From positions 1-23,960 of IMG/VR virus record IMGVR_UViG_3300036770_005159: a stretch of 23,960 nt of DNA, one strand, 5' to 3'. The first letter of the stretch is position 1. Each line of letters starts with the position of its first letter. The stretch is from a virus. The translations under genes were made by a program, and so were the position numbers. A model generated the notes under the pieces. It ran no database searches. It saw only the letters and a list, made by a program, of their open reading frames with translations, and was not told the origin of the DNA. Positions 3,363 to 21,967 of this stretch are shown one piece after another.

Positions 3363-4022
3363 CTACGCCTTCTTGGCGTAGAGATCGTTGAGACGTCGCA
3401 GAACCGAAATCGGAACTGCGACTGGTGCCTCCGGTGTGTCGTCAATCGGTTCTGGATCGCTTTCGTCCGAGGATCGCACCGTCGCCGATGTGTCGGGATA
3501 GGCCGGGAATCCGGTCACCACCGAGACTTCGTGGAGGACGACTTCTTGAAGTTCGCGAGTCTGTCCGTCACCGGACCAGGCGTCGCCGCCTTTAGGGACG
3601 GAGAACCCGAACGACATCGAGTGGACGTCACCTCGACGCATGAGTATCGACAGGTCACGCCCGTAAGTGGTGTCCGGCAAGGTGCCTTCGACCAGTAGCC
3701 CCCGCTCGTCTTCGGTGAGAGTGATCGTTCCCGACCGCGTCGATCCGAGCACCATGTCCGAGTTGTGATTCACGAACATTCGGATCTCGCGACCCGAGTT
3801 CAGCGACCGGCGAAATGCTCCAGGGCGGATCGTTTCGATGAACGGCAACGGCTCGGACTCGGCATTGAACACCGCCGCATACCCGCGAAAGGTTCGAGGC
3901 ATGTCCTCGTCATCGGTGACGTCGAGGTTGCCGAGGGTGACACTGCGGAACTCGACATCTCGTCCATGAATCGGTGCGGTGGTGATGTCAAGTCGCGTGT
4001 AGCGGACTTCAGAGTCGGACAT
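3363..4022 (-). CDS. HK97-family prohead maturation protease
   Basis: A 219-aa serine protease that cleaves the capsid delta domain, and itself, during head maturation. Family landmarks are present: 'FRGYAAVFN' near residue 45, 'FIETIRPGAF' near 61, catalytic His86 in 'FVNHN', the serine motif 'HSMSFGF' at 134-140, and the acidic 'LHEVSVV' strand near 165. The C-terminal 45 residues are acidic and Pro-rich and are probably removed or disordered. The ATG at 4022 follows an AGGAG that overlaps the portal stop codon. It sits between portal and capsid as in HK97. Confidence 0.92.
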   Translation of the reverse strand: MSDSEVRYTRLDITTAPIHGRDVEFRSVTLGNLDVTDDEDMPRTFRGYAAVFNAESEPLPFIETIRPGAFRRSLNSGREIRMFVNHNSDMVLGSTRSGTITLTEDERGLLVEGTLPDTTYGRDLSILMRRGDVHSMSFGFSVPKGGDAWSGDGQTRELQEVVLHEVSVVTGFPAYPDTSATVRSSDESDPEPIDDTPEAPVAVPISVLRRLNDLYAKKA

Positions 4023-6784: not shown

Positions 6785-7088
6785 GTGTTTCCTCCTCGGT
6801 CGCCGACACCCGTTGTGTCTCAGACATCAACCAGGTCAACCCGTCAGCAATCTGCGCGTCCAGATGCCGAAGTGCACGACGATCCGTCGGAAGGCCGCTC
6901 CGAAGAACACTGATCCGAAGGGCAACCCTCTCGTCAACCTGTTCGCACAGAACCTGCAGGATCTCCCGAGCGGCTCGAGACAAGTGATCCGGATACGACG
7001 ACACCCACAGATCGGTGCCAGCCTGACCTAACGGACGAAGAGGCTCAATCGGCGTGTCCCGAGATTTAGTCTTCGGAAGTGAAGTCAT
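6672..7088 (-). CDS. Terminase small subunit, probable
   Basis: A 138-aa protein just upstream of TerL. It contains 'PLRPLGQAGTDLWVSSYPDHLSRAAREILQVLCEQVDER', split here as a Gly-x-x-Gly-x-x-Leu-Trp segment and a helix. This resembles the P27-like small terminase family, which recognises phage DNA for packaging. The last 30 residues are Arg/Ser/Gly-rich and lie entirely in the region that overlaps TerL in another frame, so they are probably a flexible tail. The start at 7088 overlaps the methyltransferase gene by 23 bases, and the ribosome site is weak, so translation is likely coupled. Confidence 0.7.
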   Translation of the reverse strand: MTSLPKTKSRDTPIEPLRPLGQAGTDLWVSSYPDHLSRAAREILQVLCEQVDERVALRISVLRSGLPTDRRALRHLDAQIADGLTWLMSETQRVSATEEETLVDELARRRSDRISGATASSSPGRRSQQRRRGSGGTG

Positions 7089-8313
7089 GTTCGTTCCCTG
7101 TCGCGGCGGAGACCGGTTTGATGCCGGTTGCTTCTTGGAACCTTCGACAGATCACGTCGCAGTAGCGAGGGTCAAGTTCCATGACACGCGCCACCCGACC
7201 AGCCTTTTCGGCAGCGACCATTGTTGAACCCGACCCTCCAAATAGGTCCAGGATCACACCACCGGCCTTAGATGAGTTCCGGATGCAGTAGAGGATCAAC
7301 TCAACCGGCTTCATCGTCGGATGATCAGACGAGCGGCTCGGCTTTGGAAACTCCAACACCGACGTCTGAGCGTTGTCGCCGTACCAGCCAGCACCACCGC
7401 GACCTCGTCGACCCTTCGCACCGGGGACATAACCGAAGTAGATGTCCTCGTGCCGATAGTGATAGTCGGAATGCCCCAGGACAAGAGAGTCCTTCACCCA
7501 CACCAGCCGCTGCCGGTACAGGCCAAGTTCAGACAACTTGGTGGCGAACACAACCGCTTGTTGACCAGCAGGGGCGGCCACATAGACCGCCGCTCCGGCT
7601 TTGCATCCTGCGATCAGATTCGCAAACGCACCGGTCAGTAGTTGATCAAGGTCGGACTCCGAGTCGTTCTTGATCGTGAGCGAGTCCTTGGTCTTTCCCA
7701 CATAGGACACGCCGTAAGGAGGATCAGTCCACACCATGTCGGCGAGAGCACCGTCGAGGAGTCGATCCAGGTCAGATGCCGACGTCGCATCACCACACAT
7801 CAGCCGATGCTCACCAAGAATCCAGACGTCACCAGGAACCGTCTTGGCCGGAGCCGAATCAGGTACGTTGTCCGGATCGTCAACCTGAAGCGTCCGATCC
7901 GAATCAACGATCCGATCGAGCAACTCGGCGACTTCATCATCCGACCAGCCCGACGCCACCAGGAGATCGGCGTCGATGGCCTGAACTGAAGCGATCAAAT
8001 CGGCGAGCGCTTGCTCGTCGTAGCCGCCCAACTCGGCGGTGCGGTTGTCCGCCAACGCATAGGCGTTCGCAGTGACATCGTCATCGTCAACCCACACCAC
8101 AGCGATCTCGGACCACCCCAACGACTGGGCCGCCTGAAGAGTGTGGTTGCCTGCGATCACCGTGCCATCTCGACGAGCGACAATCGGCTTTCGTTGACCG
8201 AACGCATCAAGACTTCGGGCCACGGCCTCAACGTCGCCACGTCGAGGATTGTCCGGGAGAAGATGCAGGTCAGCGACCGGCGTTGAGAGCGGAACAAGGT
8301 CGGCGTGAATCAT
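7066..8313 (-). CDS. ParB-domain DNA methyltransferase fusion
   Basis: A 415-aa two-domain protein. Residues 1-110 resemble a ParB/Srx-like domain, with 'LLPDNPRRGD' and the Gly-Asn-His-Thr-Leu-Gln-Ala-Ala motif at 55-62 (the GxxR-like nucleotide-binding segment, with His in place of Arg). The C-terminal part is an adenine-N6 or cytosine-N4 methyltransferase: catalytic TDPPYG at 196-201 comes before the AdoMet motif 'DLFGGSGST' at 356-364, the beta-class order, with 'HPTMKPVEL' at 331-339. ParB-methylase fusions are known in phages and islands. The ATG at 8313 is chosen because GGAG lies four bases upstream. It may protect phage DNA from host restriction. No partner nuclease is adjacent. Confidence 0.88.
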   Translation of the reverse strand: MIHADLVPLSTPVADLHLLPDNPRRGDVEAVARSLDAFGQRKPIVARRDGTVIAGNHTLQAAQSLGWSEIAVVWVDDDDVTANAYALADNRTAELGGYDEQALADLIASVQAIDADLLVASGWSDDEVAELLDRIVDSDRTLQVDDPDNVPDSAPAKTVPGDVWILGEHRLMCGDATSASDLDRLLDGALADMVWTDPPYGVSYVGKTKDSLTIKNDSESDLDQLLTGAFANLIAGCKAGAAVYVAAPAGQQAVVFATKLSELGLYRQRLVWVKDSLVLGHSDYHYRHEDIYFGYVPGAKGRRGRGGAGWYGDNAQTSVLEFPKPSRSSDHPTMKPVELILYCIRNSSKAGGVILDLFGGSGSTMVAAEKAGRVARVMELDPRYCDVICRRFQEATGIKPVSAATGNEHDFTSED

Positions 8314-8414
8314 CAGGCTCCAACTAGAGAGAAACGACTGCGACGGGGTACTGCCAGCACCTGTCACGACAGAAAACTGAAGGGGGGCGGCGGGCCATCC
8401 CCATCACGAGTCGT

Positions 8415-9035: not shown

Positions 9036-9039
9036 TTAC
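9014..9039. promoter_or_regulatory. Overlapping GTTAC palindromes
   Basis: GTTACC (9014-9019) and GGTAAC (9023-9028) form a perfect dyad with a 3-base centre. The second arm pairs again with GTTAC at 9035-9039 across six bases. Three half-sites in 26 bp look like a binding site for a dimeric regulator. The site lies at the 3' end of the gene ending at 9036, ahead of the HNH and packaging genes. The protein that binds it is unknown. Confidence 0.4.
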
Positions 9040-9491
9040 TGCGTTGTTGAGGTGTCGCCTGTTTCGGAGCGGTAGCGCACCATCCAACAGCGATCGCAGA
9101 GTCCTGTTTTGTGCCGTCGTCCGTCAGCGATGTTGGTGCAGGTGGCGTCGACTGCTCCGGAGCATCGTGCGGATCGTTTCACGTCGGTTAGGTCTACACG
9201 TTTTGGTCCGGAGTGGAGGATGTCGTCGAGTCGTTTGACGTCTTGGTAAAGACGATCGATGATGCGTTCGGATTCGTTGATGAGGTGCGCGTACTTCTGG
9301 CGGTTGATTGCGGTGCGTCCGGTGGGGTCGTTGATGTTGCCGCCGCCGACACCGTTGCTTTCAGAGCTAGTGGGGTATCCGTCTGGGATGAGGCCGCTGA
9401 TCCATCGATGCCACGTTTCGAACTCTTTGGAGAGATGTTCGAGGTGGCTCCGCGTGTTGCGCAGTTGGAGGGCTGCTCGACGTCTTCTCAT
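9036..9491 (-). CDS. Hypothetical protein with C-terminal zinc ribbon
   Basis: A 151-aa basic protein of unknown function. Residues 1-35 are helical and strongly basic. A Gly/Ser-rich loop lies near 40-60, and a long helix spans about 62-95. The C-terminus has Cys110, Cys118, Cys132 and Cys135 ('CSGAVDATC' and 'CDRC'), a pattern fit for one zinc ion. A very good AAGGAG lies four to five bases before the ATG at 9491. The gene starts in the stop codon of the small repeat-bearing ORF upstream (ATGA). Nucleic-acid binding is a reasonable guess from charge and zinc motif, not more. Confidence 0.65.
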   Translation of the reverse strand: MRRRRAALQLRNTRSHLEHLSKEFETWHRWISGLIPDGYPTSSESNGVGGGNINDPTGRTAINRQKYAHLINESERIIDRLYQDVKRLDDILHSGPKRVDLTDVKRSARCSGAVDATCTNIADGRRHKTGLCDRCWMVRYRSETGDTSTTQ

Positions 9492-9727
9492 CTGTTCTCC
9501 TTGTCTTGAAAGTTGGTGGGTCGTGGGCGGTCTATTTCATAGACCGCCACAACGGACCCCACTGGTCCCCAACTTCTGTTGAGGTGGTCCCCGCCGTTTT
9601 GGCTGGTCAGGTGTGTCTTGTTGAGGTGGTCCCCGGTGGTCCCCACAGCGCTCGGGACCACGTTTTGGGTGGTCCCCAGAGTGGTCCCCAACTTTCTGGG
9701 GGTGTTTTCGCGCCTATTGCGGATCAT
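9488..9727 (-). CDS. 79-aa repeat-bearing ORF over iterons
   Basis: A 79-codon ORF joining the primase-helicase gene (14-base overlap) to the next gene (ATGA overlap). Its middle encodes repeated Gly-Thr-Thr and Gly-Asp-His-Leu-Asn units, because the DNA holds repeated GGGGACC elements. No domain is recognisable. The exact overlaps on both sides argue for translation. The repeats and the perfect hairpin near its end suggest that the DNA itself has a job, so the reading frame may be secondary. The ribosome site of the following gene lies inside its last codons. Confidence 0.45.
   Translation of the reverse strand: MIRNRRENTPRKLGTTLGTTQNVVPSAVGTTGDHLNKTHLTSQNGGDHLNRSWGPVGSVVAVYEIDRPRPTNFQDKENR
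9526..9548. repeat. Perfect 10-bp hairpin beside the iterons
   Basis: GGCGGTCTAT (9526-9535) is the reverse complement of ATAGACCGCC (9539-9548), with a 3-base loop. It lies in the coding end of the 79-aa ORF, 16 bp from the first GGTCCCC repeat. A role in replication initiation or in mRNA control is possible. Nothing like a U-tract follows on either strand. Confidence 0.6.
9564..9689. repeat. Iteron-like GGTCCCC repeats, candidate origin
   Basis: Six direct copies of GGTCCCC start at 9564, 9586, 9628, 9638, 9671 and 9683, with an inverted GGGACCAC copy at 9654-9661. The spacings between starts (22, 42, 10, 33, 12) are close to whole turns of the helix. Longer identities exist: TGTTGAGGTGGTCCCC at 9577 and 9619, and GGTCCCCAACTT at 9564 and 9683. 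The cluster lies directly downstream of the primase-helicase gene. This is what an initiator-binding iteron array would look like, though binding is not shown. Confidence 0.55.
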
Positions 9728-11540
9728 TCATGCTCTCCAGGAGCCGTCTGATGTCGCCGTCGTTGACCTTGCGGGATCGCATCTTCTGTGCGGCAGTTAC
9801 GACGTCGTGTCGGAACGATGGCAGTCCCTTTTCTCGCAGGAACTTTTGGATGCGACGTCGTGACCATTCGAGCGGGATGTTGAGTCGGTCGAATTCGTCA
9901 GCGGCTTTGACGGTGCCAACTGGCCACGAGTCGCCAACTTTTCGGAACCGGACGGGGGTGTCTCCTTCGAGGCCGTCGATGAGGTAGTCCTCTTCTCGGA
10001 TGAAGGTGGCGGATCGTGCGACGACGGCGGAGATGCGGACTCCGTTGTCGGTGCGTGCCAGTTTGAGAACGGCGTCGGGTTTGTCGAGTTTCACCGAGGT
10101 GCCTCGTGGACCTTTGGTGACGTCTTTGCCGGTGTTGTCGCCGGTGACGATGGCGATGCCTTGTTCCTTGAGGGGTTGGACGGTGTAGTGGAAGAAGTGT
10201 CGAAGTGCCGTGCTGTCGTTCTCTTCGCCTTGGAGGCCGCCGTTGAGGCCGTCGATCACCACGATCTGGCATCGGTAGTGGATGGCGGTGGTCACCACTC
10301 TGCGTGCACCTTCGGGGGTGTCCATGAGGGGGACGATGTCGACGGCGTAGAACCGGGTGAGGTCGGTGGCTTCGAAGCCGAGGTCGAAGATGCGTTCTTC
10401 GAGGTCGATGCGTCCCATTTCGCAGTCGAGGTAGAGCACGGTGACTGGTGTTTGGGTTGCTCCGGTGAACGGGTCGATGCCAACGGAGCAGTTGACCGCC
10501 ATGTTCATGATGAAGGTCGTCTTGCCTTGTTTGGCGGGTGCGACGATCGCTGTCCATCGTCCGGGTGAGATCACTCCTGGGACGATGTCGTTGGAAGGTT
10601 CGTGGAGTCGGGAGAAGTCGATGACGTCGAGGATGTAGTCGTCGACGGGTGGGGCGGTTTCTTGGGGAAGCCAGGTGAGGTCGTCTTCGGTGACGAGTTG
10701 GTCGCCGGAGACGATGTAGCGGCCGTCGGCGTGGAAGGGCGGCCAGTTGCCGGTGAACACCTTGACGACGCCTGGTCCGACGTGGCCGACGGTGGCGGAC
10801 ACTCCGTCGGCTTTTCCTGGTCGGGTGACGTAGATGGTGTCGCCTCGTAGTTGTGGGTTGTGTGCGCCGTGTTTGTCGATGAGGACGGTGAGTGCGTCGA
10901 GGTCTTGGTGGCGTCCCAGATTGGTGAGGTGGCGGACGATGCGGTCAAGTCCGGTGACCTGGTGTGTGTCTCCGTTTTCAGGGATGGGGGTGGGGGTCTT
11001 CTTTTCGATCTGATTCCAAAGCTCTTGTGGGGCGTCGGTGACGTCGCTGGTCAGGTCGTCGAAGGTGTGCCAGTCGCCGTGTTCGCTGGTGGTTCCGGGC
11101 ATGATCACGAATCCGTTGTCGGAGCGGATGCAGTCAACTCCGGCGAGGTTGGTGGTGTTGCCGACGGTCTGGTTGTCGAGTTTGCGATACCAGATGTGGA
11201 CGCCACCACTCGGGGTGGTGACGGTGTAGGTGCTCGGGTAGTCGTATTGCTGAAAGAGCGCGAGGTCGTCGGTGCTGTCGATGTCAATGACGACGTAACC
11301 GGCGGTGCCGGGGAGTCCGCCGACGGCCCATGCGCCCGTCCAGGTGGGGGTGGCGAACAGGGTGCGTAGGTCGTCGAGGTTGGTGGTGAAGTCTCTGAAG
11401 CCGTTACGGCACAGGGGTCGCTTGTTGATCTTCTGTTTGTCGGGGTCGTAGGTGAGGCCGCAGGGTCCGACGGGGATGCCGTGGGCGACGTGCTCGAGGG
11501 CGACGGCGAGGGCTTGTTCGCGTGTCAGGTTGCGTGTCAT
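9714..11540 (-). CDS. Primase-polymerase/RepA-like helicase
   Basis: A 608-aa replication protein with two enzymatic domains. The N-terminal 180 residues are an archaeo-eukaryotic primase (prim-pol) domain: catalytic 'VVIDIDS' with Asp86/Asp88, then SGGVHIWYR at 111-119, and 'SDNGFVIMPG' near 140-149. The second part is a RecA/RepA-like ATPase with Walker A 'APAKQGKTT' at 334-342, 'LYLDCEMG' near 369 and Walker B IVVIDG at 426-431. The C-terminal 100 residues are basic and may bind DNA. GGAGG lies five bases before the ATG at 11540. It likely primes and unwinds phage DNA, probably at the repeat cluster just downstream. Confidence 0.93.
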   Translation of the reverse strand: MTRNLTREQALAVALEHVAHGIPVGPCGLTYDPDKQKINKRPLCRNGFRDFTTNLDDLRTLFATPTWTGAWAVGGLPGTAGYVVIDIDSTDDLALFQQYDYPSTYTVTTPSGGVHIWYRKLDNQTVGNTTNLAGVDCIRSDNGFVIMPGTTSEHGDWHTFDDLTSDVTDAPQELWNQIEKKTPTPIPENGDTHQVTGLDRIVRHLTNLGRHQDLDALTVLIDKHGAHNPQLRGDTIYVTRPGKADGVSATVGHVGPGVVKVFTGNWPPFHADGRYIVSGDQLVTEDDLTWLPQETAPPVDDYILDVIDFSRLHEPSNDIVPGVISPGRWTAIVAPAKQGKTTFIMNMAVNCSVGIDPFTGATQTPVTVLYLDCEMGRIDLEERIFDLGFEATDLTRFYAVDIVPLMDTPEGARRVVTTAIHYRCQIVVIDGLNGGLQGEENDSTALRHFFHYTVQPLKEQGIAIVTGDNTGKDVTKGPRGTSVKLDKPDAVLKLARTDNGVRISAVVARSATFIREEDYLIDGLEGDTPVRFRKVGDSWPVGTVKAADEFDRLNIPLEWSRRRIQKFLREKGLPSFRHDVVTAAQKMRSRKVNDGDIRRLLESMNDPQ

Positions 11541-14503: not shown

Positions 14504-15430
14504 ATGGGGCTTTTCGCCAGCGAAATAACGCGACTTCGAAGCCAGCGGGGTTGGACCCCGACGGAACTCGCCGAGAAATCAGGGGTCACCCACGCCGCCG
14601 TCTGGCAATGGGAGGAGAGCCGCACGCTCCCCTCGCGACCACGGGTCGCCGCCCTCGAAGCCGCCTTTCAGATCGAAAGCGGATCGTTACAAGCGCTCGT
14701 CGACACCGACCGTGGACACCGTCGTCGCGGCCCCAACGACACCCCGAACCCGCGTACTCCTCTCCAGCCGCGAACTGCTCCTGCGGTTCATCGACGGACA
14801 GCGGGGTCGAAGTCCGCATCGGAGGAGGCCGACGATGTCGACGACTTCATCTTCGCCATGAGTGACTACGTCGTGGAACGTCTTGCCATGATCGAGGCGA
14901 ACAACAGACGGGTCGAGGAATTGAACGACGAGGCACGCGTCCTGATGAATCAGGCGTTGGAGAACCTCGGGAAGCCGGAGGCTCAAGCACTCATCGAACG
15001 CGGCGGTGCGTTGCTCGCTCTCGCCAAACGAATCGTCGATGAAAGCAAGGTTCTACATCGTGAAGCCGATCAGCGACGGTCCGTGGCTGTTCGGCTCATT
15101 CAACGCACACGACACATCGTCAACGCCGACAACGATTCGGACGAGGTGGCACCGGAAAAGATCAGCGACGTCGCCAGACGTCGTATGGCGCGCAGGAATT
15201 CGAAACGCCGCTCAGAGCTCTTCGGTCTCTACAAGGAACTCGAGAGCGCTACGAACCAGTGGTTCACACCGGACGCTTCACCAGGCGACGTAGTCCCGCT
15301 TCTCACTTTGCTTCTCTCGTTAATGAACCGGGTCAACGACTTGGAGAGCAACGTCTCCGATCTGAAAATGGCGCTGGATTCGGAGAGGTTGAAGCGTCAG
15401 GGCAAACCGGCGACCGGCTTGGTCGAGTAG
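14504..15430 (+). CDS. XRE-family regulator, immunity repressor candidate
   Basis: The only plus-strand gene of the window: a 308-aa protein. Residues 5-58 are an XRE HTH ('ITRLRSQRGWTPTELAEKSGVTHAAVWQWEESRTLPSRPR', split here, recognition helix 'THAAVWQWE'). A Pro/Arg-rich linker follows (70-105), then long charged helices (115-250) and a coiled-coil-like C-terminus (275-300), probably for oligomerisation. No protease motif of LexA/CI type is seen. AGGAGG lies nine bases before the ATG. Its place opposite an HTH gene and near integrase makes it the best candidate for the lysogeny repressor. The plus and minus stops at 15430 and 15436 are only 5 bp apart. Confidence 0.75.
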   Translation: MGLFASEITRLRSQRGWTPTELAEKSGVTHAAVWQWEESRTLPSRPRVAALEAAFQIESGSLQALVDTDRGHRRRGPNDTPNPRTPLQPRTAPAVHRRTAGSKSASEEADDVDDFIFAMSDYVVERLAMIEANNRRVEELNDEARVLMNQALENLGKPEAQALIERGGALLALAKRIVDESKVLHREADQRRSVAVRLIQRTRHIVNADNDSDEVAPEKISDVARRRMARRNSKRRSELFGLYKELESATNQWFTPDASPGDVVPLLTLLLSLMNRVNDLESNVSDLKMALDSERLKRQGKPATGLVE

Positions 15431-20769: not shown

Positions 20770-21165
20770 TCAGGGGAACAAGACGACACGAACCGTGTCG
20801 AAGTCGAACGTCCAGACGTTCGTCGCAACGCTCATCGCGTTCGACGTCACGGTGCCGCTGTAGTTGTCGACCAACGTCTGACCGTTGAGGAAGTAGACCT
20901 CGCCGGTGGTGCAGTCACCGGCGATGCCGGTCACGTTGACGGCGGCGACCTTGATGCCATTGTTCGAGGCGTTGCCGTAGGTGTAGGCGATGTCGACCCC
21001 GTCTTCGTCGCAGGCGTTCACGCCTTGGTCGCCGACTGCGGGAAACAGTGGGGTGTTGATGCCGAGGGCGGTGAGGGCGTAGGTGACGCCGCCACCGATC
21101 AGGGCCGCACCGAACACGAGGGCGGCGATCTTGCGACGGTGAGCGGGCTTCTTCGTGGTTGTCAT
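20770..21165 (-). CDS. Secreted or membrane-anchored protein
   Basis: A 131-aa protein with a basic N-terminus (MTTTKKPAHRRK) followed by a hydrophobic helix 'IAALVFGAALIGGGVTYAL' at about 13-31, a signal peptide or anchor of the type seen in SipW-dependent secreted proteins. The rest is beta-rich, with two Cys (CDEDG near 52 and DCTTG near 84) that could form a disulfide, and many Val/Thr strands to the end. AAAGG lies six bases before ATG 21165. No enzyme motif is seen. It lies next to the LPXTG protein, so both may reach the host surface. Confidence 0.65.
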   Translation of the reverse strand: MTTTKKPAHRRKIAALVFGAALIGGGVTYALTALGINTPLFPAVGDQGVNACDEDGVDIAYTYGNASNNGIKVAAVNVTGIAGDCTTGEVYFLNGQTLVDNYSGTVTSNAMSVATNVWTFDFDTVRVVLFP

Positions 21166-21214
21166 GTCTGACCTTTCGGGTGTGTGGTGGGTGCCTCCGA
21201 GAGTTCAGGTGGTG

Positions 21215-21967
21215 TCAGGGCGACGTCGAGAGACGTCGACGGGCGGCGAGGATCGCGCCGCCGAGACCGGCGATCCACAGAGCTACGAATCCGAGTGACC
21301 TGTCGCCACCGGTGGTGGGAAGTTTCGGTGTGTCAGGCGGCGGTGTCGTTGTGGTGGGCGGTGCTGTCGTTTCAGGCACGGTCGTTGTGGTCGACGTCGT
21401 CCCAGGTGGCCGCGTGGGAGGCGGTGGCGGTGTCGTGGGTGGTGTTGTCGTCGTCGGTGAGACGGTCGTCTCGGGAACAGTCGTCGGAGGGACGGTCGTC
21501 GTCGGAGGGACGGTCGTCGTCGGAGGGACGGTCGTCGGTGGTGTTGGTGCTTCGCAAACGTGCGAGAGAACGAACTTGACCTTCGACCCACCCGGCTCGT
21601 ACACGGCGGCCGACCCCTCCTTCGTCAGGTCGGTGATGGTGAATCCGTCCGGCACCGCGACGAACACGTTGTCAAGTTGCCCAGCGTTGAGAACCATGTC
21701 CCGTAGGAGCACAGTCACGGTGGTGCCATCAAGGTTCAAGTCCATCGAGACGAACTGATAATCCCCGCCGTTCGGAGTGAGAACGAAATGCCACCAGTCG
21801 CCCTCCGGTGGACAATCCGAGTCCGTTTCTGCTCGATCGTTGTGCAGTTCGACCTGACCCGTGCTGAGTTCGATCTCGTTGTCGTTGGACGCTGACGCTT
21901 CCGTTGTCGAGTGGTGGAGCGAGTACGTGAGCAGGCCGACGAGCAGGAACTTGACGGTGGTTTTCAT
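21215..21967 (-). CDS. LPXTG wall-anchored Thr/Pro-rich surface protein
   Basis: A 250-aa exported protein. A signal peptide covers about residues 1-25 (MKTTVKFLLVGLLTYSLHHS). The body (30-138) is a beta-rich domain with Cys52 and Cys138. A Thr/Pro linker follows (140-212, Val-Pro-Pro-Thr-Thr units encoded partly by an 18-bp tandem repeat), then the sorting signal LPTTG at 216-220, a hydrophobic helix (225-240) and an Arg-rich tail. Sortase should attach it to the cell wall. AAGGA lies six bases before the ATG. In a phage this could alter the lysogen's surface; a virion role is possible but less natural. Confidence 0.85.
   Translation of the reverse strand: MKTTVKFLLVGLLTYSLHHSTTEASASNDNEIELSTGQVELHNDRAETDSDCPPEGDWWHFVLTPNGGDYQFVSMDLNLDGTTVTVLLRDMVLNAGQLDNVFVAVPDGFTITDLTKEGSAAVYEPGGSKVKFVLSHVCEAPTPPTTVPPTTTVPPTTTVPPTTVPETTVSPTTTTPPTTPPPPPTRPPGTTSTTTTVPETTAPPTTTTPPPDTPKLPTTGGDRSLGFVALWIAGLGGAILAARRRLSTSP
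21484..21535. repeat. 18-bp tandem repeat in Thr/Pro linker
   Basis: About three copies of the unit GGAGGGACGGTCGTCGTC on the plus strand. In the coding sense they give Val-Pro-Pro-Thr-Thr-Thr repeats of the LPXTG protein. Copy number may vary by slippage. Confidence 0.75.

Follow-up and report, generated by a model that had tools for sequence, protein, structure and literature searches.

A short array of direct repeats lying immediately 3′ of a fused primase-helicase gene is, as far as sequence comparison can tell, very probably a phage replication origin, in which the repeats (iterons) would be bound by the C-terminal domain of the replicase itself, a helicase ring loaded, a hairpin exposed and synthesis by the prim-pol started there or nearby. 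The array lies in the 23,960-base IMG/VR virus record IMGVR_UViG_3300036770_005159, the whole of which was analysed and is referred to here as the window. Genes for an integrase, an excisionase and a repressor, together with terminase, portal, head and tail genes, indicate a temperate tailed phage, and the record is probably a fragment of a phage genome. Megablast of the window against INPHARED revealed no similar sequence, and Rfam and tRNA searches of the window were empty. The features in question are the following.

7066–8367, minus strand: ParB-N/DNA methyltransferase fusion, between the small genes and the terminase
9036–9491, minus strand: 151-aa Zn-ribbon protein, encoded downstream of the array and conserved as a neighbour in many relatives
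9488–9727, minus strand: ORF79, an unconserved 79-aa reading frame that spans the array
9526–9548, minus strand: perfect 10-bp hairpin GGCGGTCTATGAAATAGACCGCC with a 3-nt loop, beyond the last iteron
9554–9560, plus strand: possible degenerate inverted copy, GGACCCC
9564–9689, minus strand: iteron array with six copies of GGGGACC on the strand that codes for the replicase (p = 0.001 against shuffles)
9654–9661, plus strand: inverted iteron GGGACCAC, 8 bp
9714–11540, minus strand: 608-aa replicase with an N-terminal Prim-Pol domain, an RSF1010-RepA-type helicase and a C-terminal three-helix domain
9771–9920, minus strand: the C-terminal three-helix domain (aa 541–590), proposed as iteron reader from AlphaFold and co-variation
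9855–9863, minus strand: SRR triplet (aa 560–562) at the start of the second helix of that domain
14504–15430: repressor gene

The replicase gene is followed by a gap of 222 bp and then by the gene of the 151-aa protein. All six copies of GGTCCCC given in a preliminary description of this DNA, with plus-strand starts at 9564, 9586, 9628, 9638, 9671 and 9683 and spacings of 22, 42, 10, 33 and 12 bp, were confirmed at their coordinates, and the heptamer is absent elsewhere in the window. Five of the six GGGGACC copies extend to GGGGACCAC. Six copies are what chance alone would give across the entire window (6.06), and the depletion outside the array is not significant, with 5.7% of composition-matched heptamers likewise absent from there; the non-random part is that all six fall within 126 bp. 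The top 8-mer occurs six times in the 420 nt from the gene end, compared with a mean of 2.0 and a maximum of 4 in dinucleotide shuffles (p = 0.001), and the highest count of a top 8-mer among 217 control windows is 5. Several short direct repeats in one short region are one mark of an iteron origin, and this is the arrangement seen in the window.

The inverted copy and the perfect 10-bp hairpin described behind the prim-pol/helicase gene are also both present. The inverted GGGACCAC and the copy at 9669 form an inverted repeat of 8 bp with a 7-nt loop, and the hairpin may be an origin structure or a priming site. That the copies are spaced by nearly whole helical turns, as was suggested, is only loosely true of the window taken by itself (best period 10.5, R = 0.89, p = 0.055, n = 5) but is clear in the pooled GGGGACC group (period 11.5, R = 0.74, p = 0.0002). 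GC skew, which had been proposed as a check, shows no switch at the array in the window or in Streptomyces phage mu1/6 and hence gives no support for an origin; such a switch is not a defining feature of phage origins. A further repeat-rich stretch is found at 21126–21860, with five copies each of CCGACGAC and ACGACCGT, in or near the ORF at 21215–21967.

The replicase matches the Pfam families Prim-Pol (PF09250, 1.5e-15) and AAA_25 (PF13481, 1.5e-17). Its helicase profile matches RSF1010 RepA (PDB 1g8y, 3.1e-7), as does the replicase model (PDB 1olo, 1.7e-9), and the helicase domain belongs to the RSF1010 RepA family by sequence and by fold. The C-terminal block is modelled by AlphaFold with a pLDDT of 82–93 as three helices (residues 543–552, 561–570 and 578–604), and a fold search with this model against the PDB gave no significant match.

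The first relatives came from a contig search with the downstream 151-aa Zn-ribbon protein; replicase scans that were narrow or used a single protein yielded no new ones, and P0003 had one partial match in genome contigs and none in phages. In L002 and L003 a homologous gene pair (proteins 42% and about 45% identical) encloses GTGGTCCCGGGACCAC and more copies of the GTGGTCC type, while L001 and L008, which have DUF3987-type replicases, carry other repeats at that place (GTGGTGTCC; GTGTACACAAC). In a scan of viral contigs for three GTGGTCCC, most hits were collagen-like coding repeats with a period of 9 and were set aside; the others included L013, L032 and L047, in which the helicase homology stops at the array. 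A scan with a helicase alignment, independent of any motif, provided 25 loci, and 23 sequences (window included, duplicates left out) were tested. An over-represented 8-mer at the replicase 3′ end was significant in 22 of these (p ≤ 0.041), the sole exception being L153 with three palindromic copies. In a second helicase scan significant arrays were found in 20/27 loci (p ≤ 0.03), of which L158 and L163 repeat earlier lineages; L161, L167, L168, L172, L174, L175 and L181 had no significant array. An array of the kind that the preliminary description proposed to look for beside prim-pol/RepA genes in related phages is present at the replicase 3′ end in most loci of both sets.

The position is shared, and the repeat itself is lineage-specific: GGGGACCAC, GGGGAACAC, GGGAACCG, GGCGCGGT, GGGCAGGT and others. 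In mu1/6 the iteron is GGGCAGGT, with copies of ACCTGCCC within the 3′ end of gp21. The N-terminus of the replicase varies as well, and arrays remain whether it is Prim-Pol, DnaB-N (mu1/6, L152) or neither, L132, L135 and L136 having no prim-pol domain; the parts shared are the helicase and the short C-terminal domain.

Perfect hairpins (stem of at least 8, loop of at most 8) no more than 300 nt away from the end of the replicase domain were detected in 16/17 loci, compared with 24/299 control windows (p = 3e-15); for a further set of loci the counts are 11/19 against 17/197 (p = 9e-7). Some of these hairpins are palindromic iterons, and most lineages have a non-iteron hairpin too, with a tip that holds TA (CTAAAG, CCTAAGG, CTATAG, CGTAG).

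Several other observations were made around the arrays. DnaA-box-like TTATCCACA sites lie by the array in two relatives only (L137 and L146), and DnaA boxes were rejected as a general feature. In L041 (7300–7400) copies of GGGACCAC in both orientations stand just downstream of another prim-pol/AAA_25 replicase without the SRR domain, and in L030 (6500–6950) GGGACCAC arrays in both orientations follow a DUF927 helicase gene in a SaPI-like layout, flanking a CT-repeat/AT-rich tract. L014 offers a different setting for the octamer, with three GGGACCAC at 10230–10310 that have a ParA-like gene on one side and a tRNA-like sequence on the other. After the array, a small Zn-ribbon protein with a GLCxxCW-like C-terminus is encoded in many lineages, including those with DUF3987-type replicases (L001, L008); the gene lies at 3549–3983 in L153, 1645–2178 in L145, 3685–4173 in L141 and 2353–2877 in L146. 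Its counterpart in the window has a good Shine-Dalgarno sequence. The protein is a conserved partner at these loci.

The iteron changes together with the C-terminal domain of the replicase rather than with its core. The identities of the two parts are decoupled: the window and L131 share 30% of the core and 51% of the C-terminal domain, and have an identical iteron; L132 and L131 are 74% identical in the core and their iterons differ; L147 and L146 are 72% identical in the core and 27% in the C-terminal domain, and again the iterons differ. With the iteron consensus picked by hand, the partial Spearman correlation between iteron and C-terminal domain given the core is 0.56 (p = 0.0002), and that between iteron and core given the C-terminal domain is about 0. 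Since the motif itself had led to three of the loci that share the identical iteron, the figure without motif-found loci is also given (0.34, p = 0.0036). With the consensus picked automatically and more loci included, the value is 0.32 (p = 0.006), all these statistics coming from about 17–26 lineages with phylogeny only partly corrected for. Within the second-scan loci alone the co-variation is weak (p = 0.03 for the triplet, p = 0.13 for the domain).

The first residues of the second helix follow the same trend. Among loci not found by motif, SRR goes with GGACCA in 3/4 versus 0/16 (p = 0.0035). By eye, SRR pairs with GGACCAC in the window, L131, L136, L137, L153, L177 and L180, and with AGTACCAC in L174; SVR pairs with GGGGAACA and GGGAAACA (GGAACA or GAAACA), TVK/TVV/TLA with GGGAACCG, GRD/GRP with GGACAGGT, GGGCAGGT and GGGGACAG, ERR with GGGAAGCA and TTR with GGGACCCAC. 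The pairing is not one to one, because the GGGACCAC arrays of L041 (prim-pol/AAA_25) and L030 (DUF927 helicase) occur without the SRR domain, and other C-terminal domains may be able to read the same octamer. The joint change of repeat and replicase tail hints at a readable protein-DNA recognition code. A bolder proposal, which we consider plausible though somewhat doubtful, is that the three-helix domain and the adjacent array are inherited together as a single ‘address cassette’, passing from one phage replicase to another irrespective of the helicase core, with a handful of residues where the second helix begins (SRR, SVR, GRD, TVx, ERR) specifying the central iteron bases and the TA-tipped hairpin being the start point. 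If this were true, nature would have provided a code for origin recognition that can be read, and by which each phage replicates only its own DNA.

Binding, ring loading, priming and origin activity are what we infer from these observations. The replicase would use its C-terminal three-helix domain to bind the GGGGACCAC iterons 3′ of its own gene. Because neighbouring copies are separated by roughly one, two, three or four turns of the helix, helicase subunits would collect on the same side of the DNA. A ring of the RecA-fold hexameric type could then be loaded, unwinding would make the adjoining hairpin single-stranded, and prim-pol synthesis would begin at or near the hairpin.

It is necessary to ask whether the array could do something else. 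NrS-1 PrimPol and pRN1 ORF904 prime at 5′-GTG, the best sites for NrS-1 being GTGA and GTGG (PMC8718748), and the complement of the window iteron is GTGGTCCCC; the repeats might accordingly be priming sites, with the prim-pol reading GTG/GTGG on a single-stranded template and starting there in the absence of any duplex-binding initiator. This reading is ranked low, and we hold it to be quite unlikely, because iterons that lack GTG on both strands are found at the same position (GGGAACCG, GGCGCGGT, GGGCAGGT); the arrays that remain beside replicases with DnaB-N or without a prim-pol domain, and the tracking of the C-terminal domain by the iteron, speak against it too. The same tracking, along with a position that stays fixed at the 3′ end of the replicase gene in diverse phages, within an operon and often within coding sequence, makes it unlikely that the array is an operator or a partition-like site at which a phage regulator or a ParB-like protein would control the operon or segregation, even though short arrays are typical of both and the window encodes the repressor and the ParB-N/methyltransferase fusion. 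That hairpins recur and some repeats are inverted would suit an RNA element of the replicase operon, either a terminator or a regulatory RNA. However, most copies are direct and helically phased, Rfam gave no match, and the hairpins of the relatives that were read lack a following T-run, which speaks against an intrinsic terminator; an element acting at the RNA level is thus very improbable.

The preliminary description also took the DNA to encode a repeat peptide, and so to be at once an origin and a small gene. The frame does overlap both neighbours, the prim-pol gene by 14 nt and the next gene by 4 nt, and since it is open with a coding-like GC3 pattern (0.54/0.49/0.72), ORF79 may be translated. 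The label ‘repeat peptide’ is nevertheless misleading: the six copies are spread over three frames (LGTT twice and VGTT; GDH twice; WGP), so that the repetition is conserved at the DNA level. ORF79 has no Pfam or PHROG match, relatives of it were sought and none found, and it shows no similarity to the unrelated 53-aa ORF that fills the gap in L003. In relatives the equivalent DNA is untranslated, part of another ORF or, in most of them, the tail of the replicase, whose stop codon lies before the array in the window, L153 and L150, within it in L131 and L136, and after it in L132, L137, L141, L145 and mu1/6; where arrays are translated, the copies of one array are mostly in two or three frames. 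A small repeat-peptide gene as the functional unit is hardly credible on these grounds. The array is best read as a DNA element, its surrounding reading frame being incidental. A peptide conserved in place of the array spacing would have counted against an origin, and the opposite was seen: the array is kept as architecture, and in one group as sequence, and the peptide is not kept. Of the dual role, the origin half is supported by the recurring arrays, the phasing, the hairpin and the co-variation with the C-terminal domain, and the small-gene half is not supported, given the lack of relatives of ORF79 and the varied coding state of the equivalent DNA. An ORF of ~27 codons with a strong Shine-Dalgarno sequence, ORF79-like by eye, was noticed in the second half of the L136 array (about 3428–3530).

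The proposed arrangement resembles several known systems. SaPI Rep and SCCmec Cch2 bind, through a C-terminal domain, iterons just downstream of their own gene (PMC7581432). As in those elements, the array here is directly 3′ of the helicase gene, the C-terminal reader being demonstrated there and proposed here. Their helicases are of the DUF927 or D5/Primase_Cterm type, whereas the present one is an RSF1010-RepA-like AAA_25 with a small three-helix domain, so the replicase may work like SaPI Rep and yet is no member of that family; unlike in SaPI Rep and Cch2, the array is often inside the replicase coding sequence. RSF1010 combines iterons, unwinding by RepA and priming by RepB′ beside stem-loops (PMC4234260). 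The window shares with this IncQ oriV a RepA-type helicase, an AEP primase, iterons and stem-loops, but the primase, helicase and putative reader are one polypeptide, in contrast to the three proteins RepA, RepB′ and RepC of RSF1010, where RepC reads the iterons. The plasmid pRN1 requires a stem-loop downstream of its prim-pol gene (PMC4234260). Its ORF904 is likewise a prim-pol replication protein with an origin element (putative here) immediately 3′ of the gene, although it has an SF3-type helicase and one 100-nt stem-loop with no iteron array, instead of a short hairpin and an array. In phage lambda, too, the iterons are inside the initiator gene and the types of initiator and iteron are matched between phages, but lambda O is neither helicase nor primase and reads the iterons with its N-terminal domain.

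As far as we are aware, neither origin nor initiator is known for most environmental phages. Here dozens of lineages have array, hairpin and putative reader packed into a few hundred bases, and both origin and initiator could become readable from sequence. The paired changes, SRR with GGACCAC and SVR with GGAACA, would offer direct tests of protein-DNA recognition, and replicons with a fused prim-pol/helicase could be developed into minimal, orthogonal systems for replication in actinobacteria used in the laboratory.
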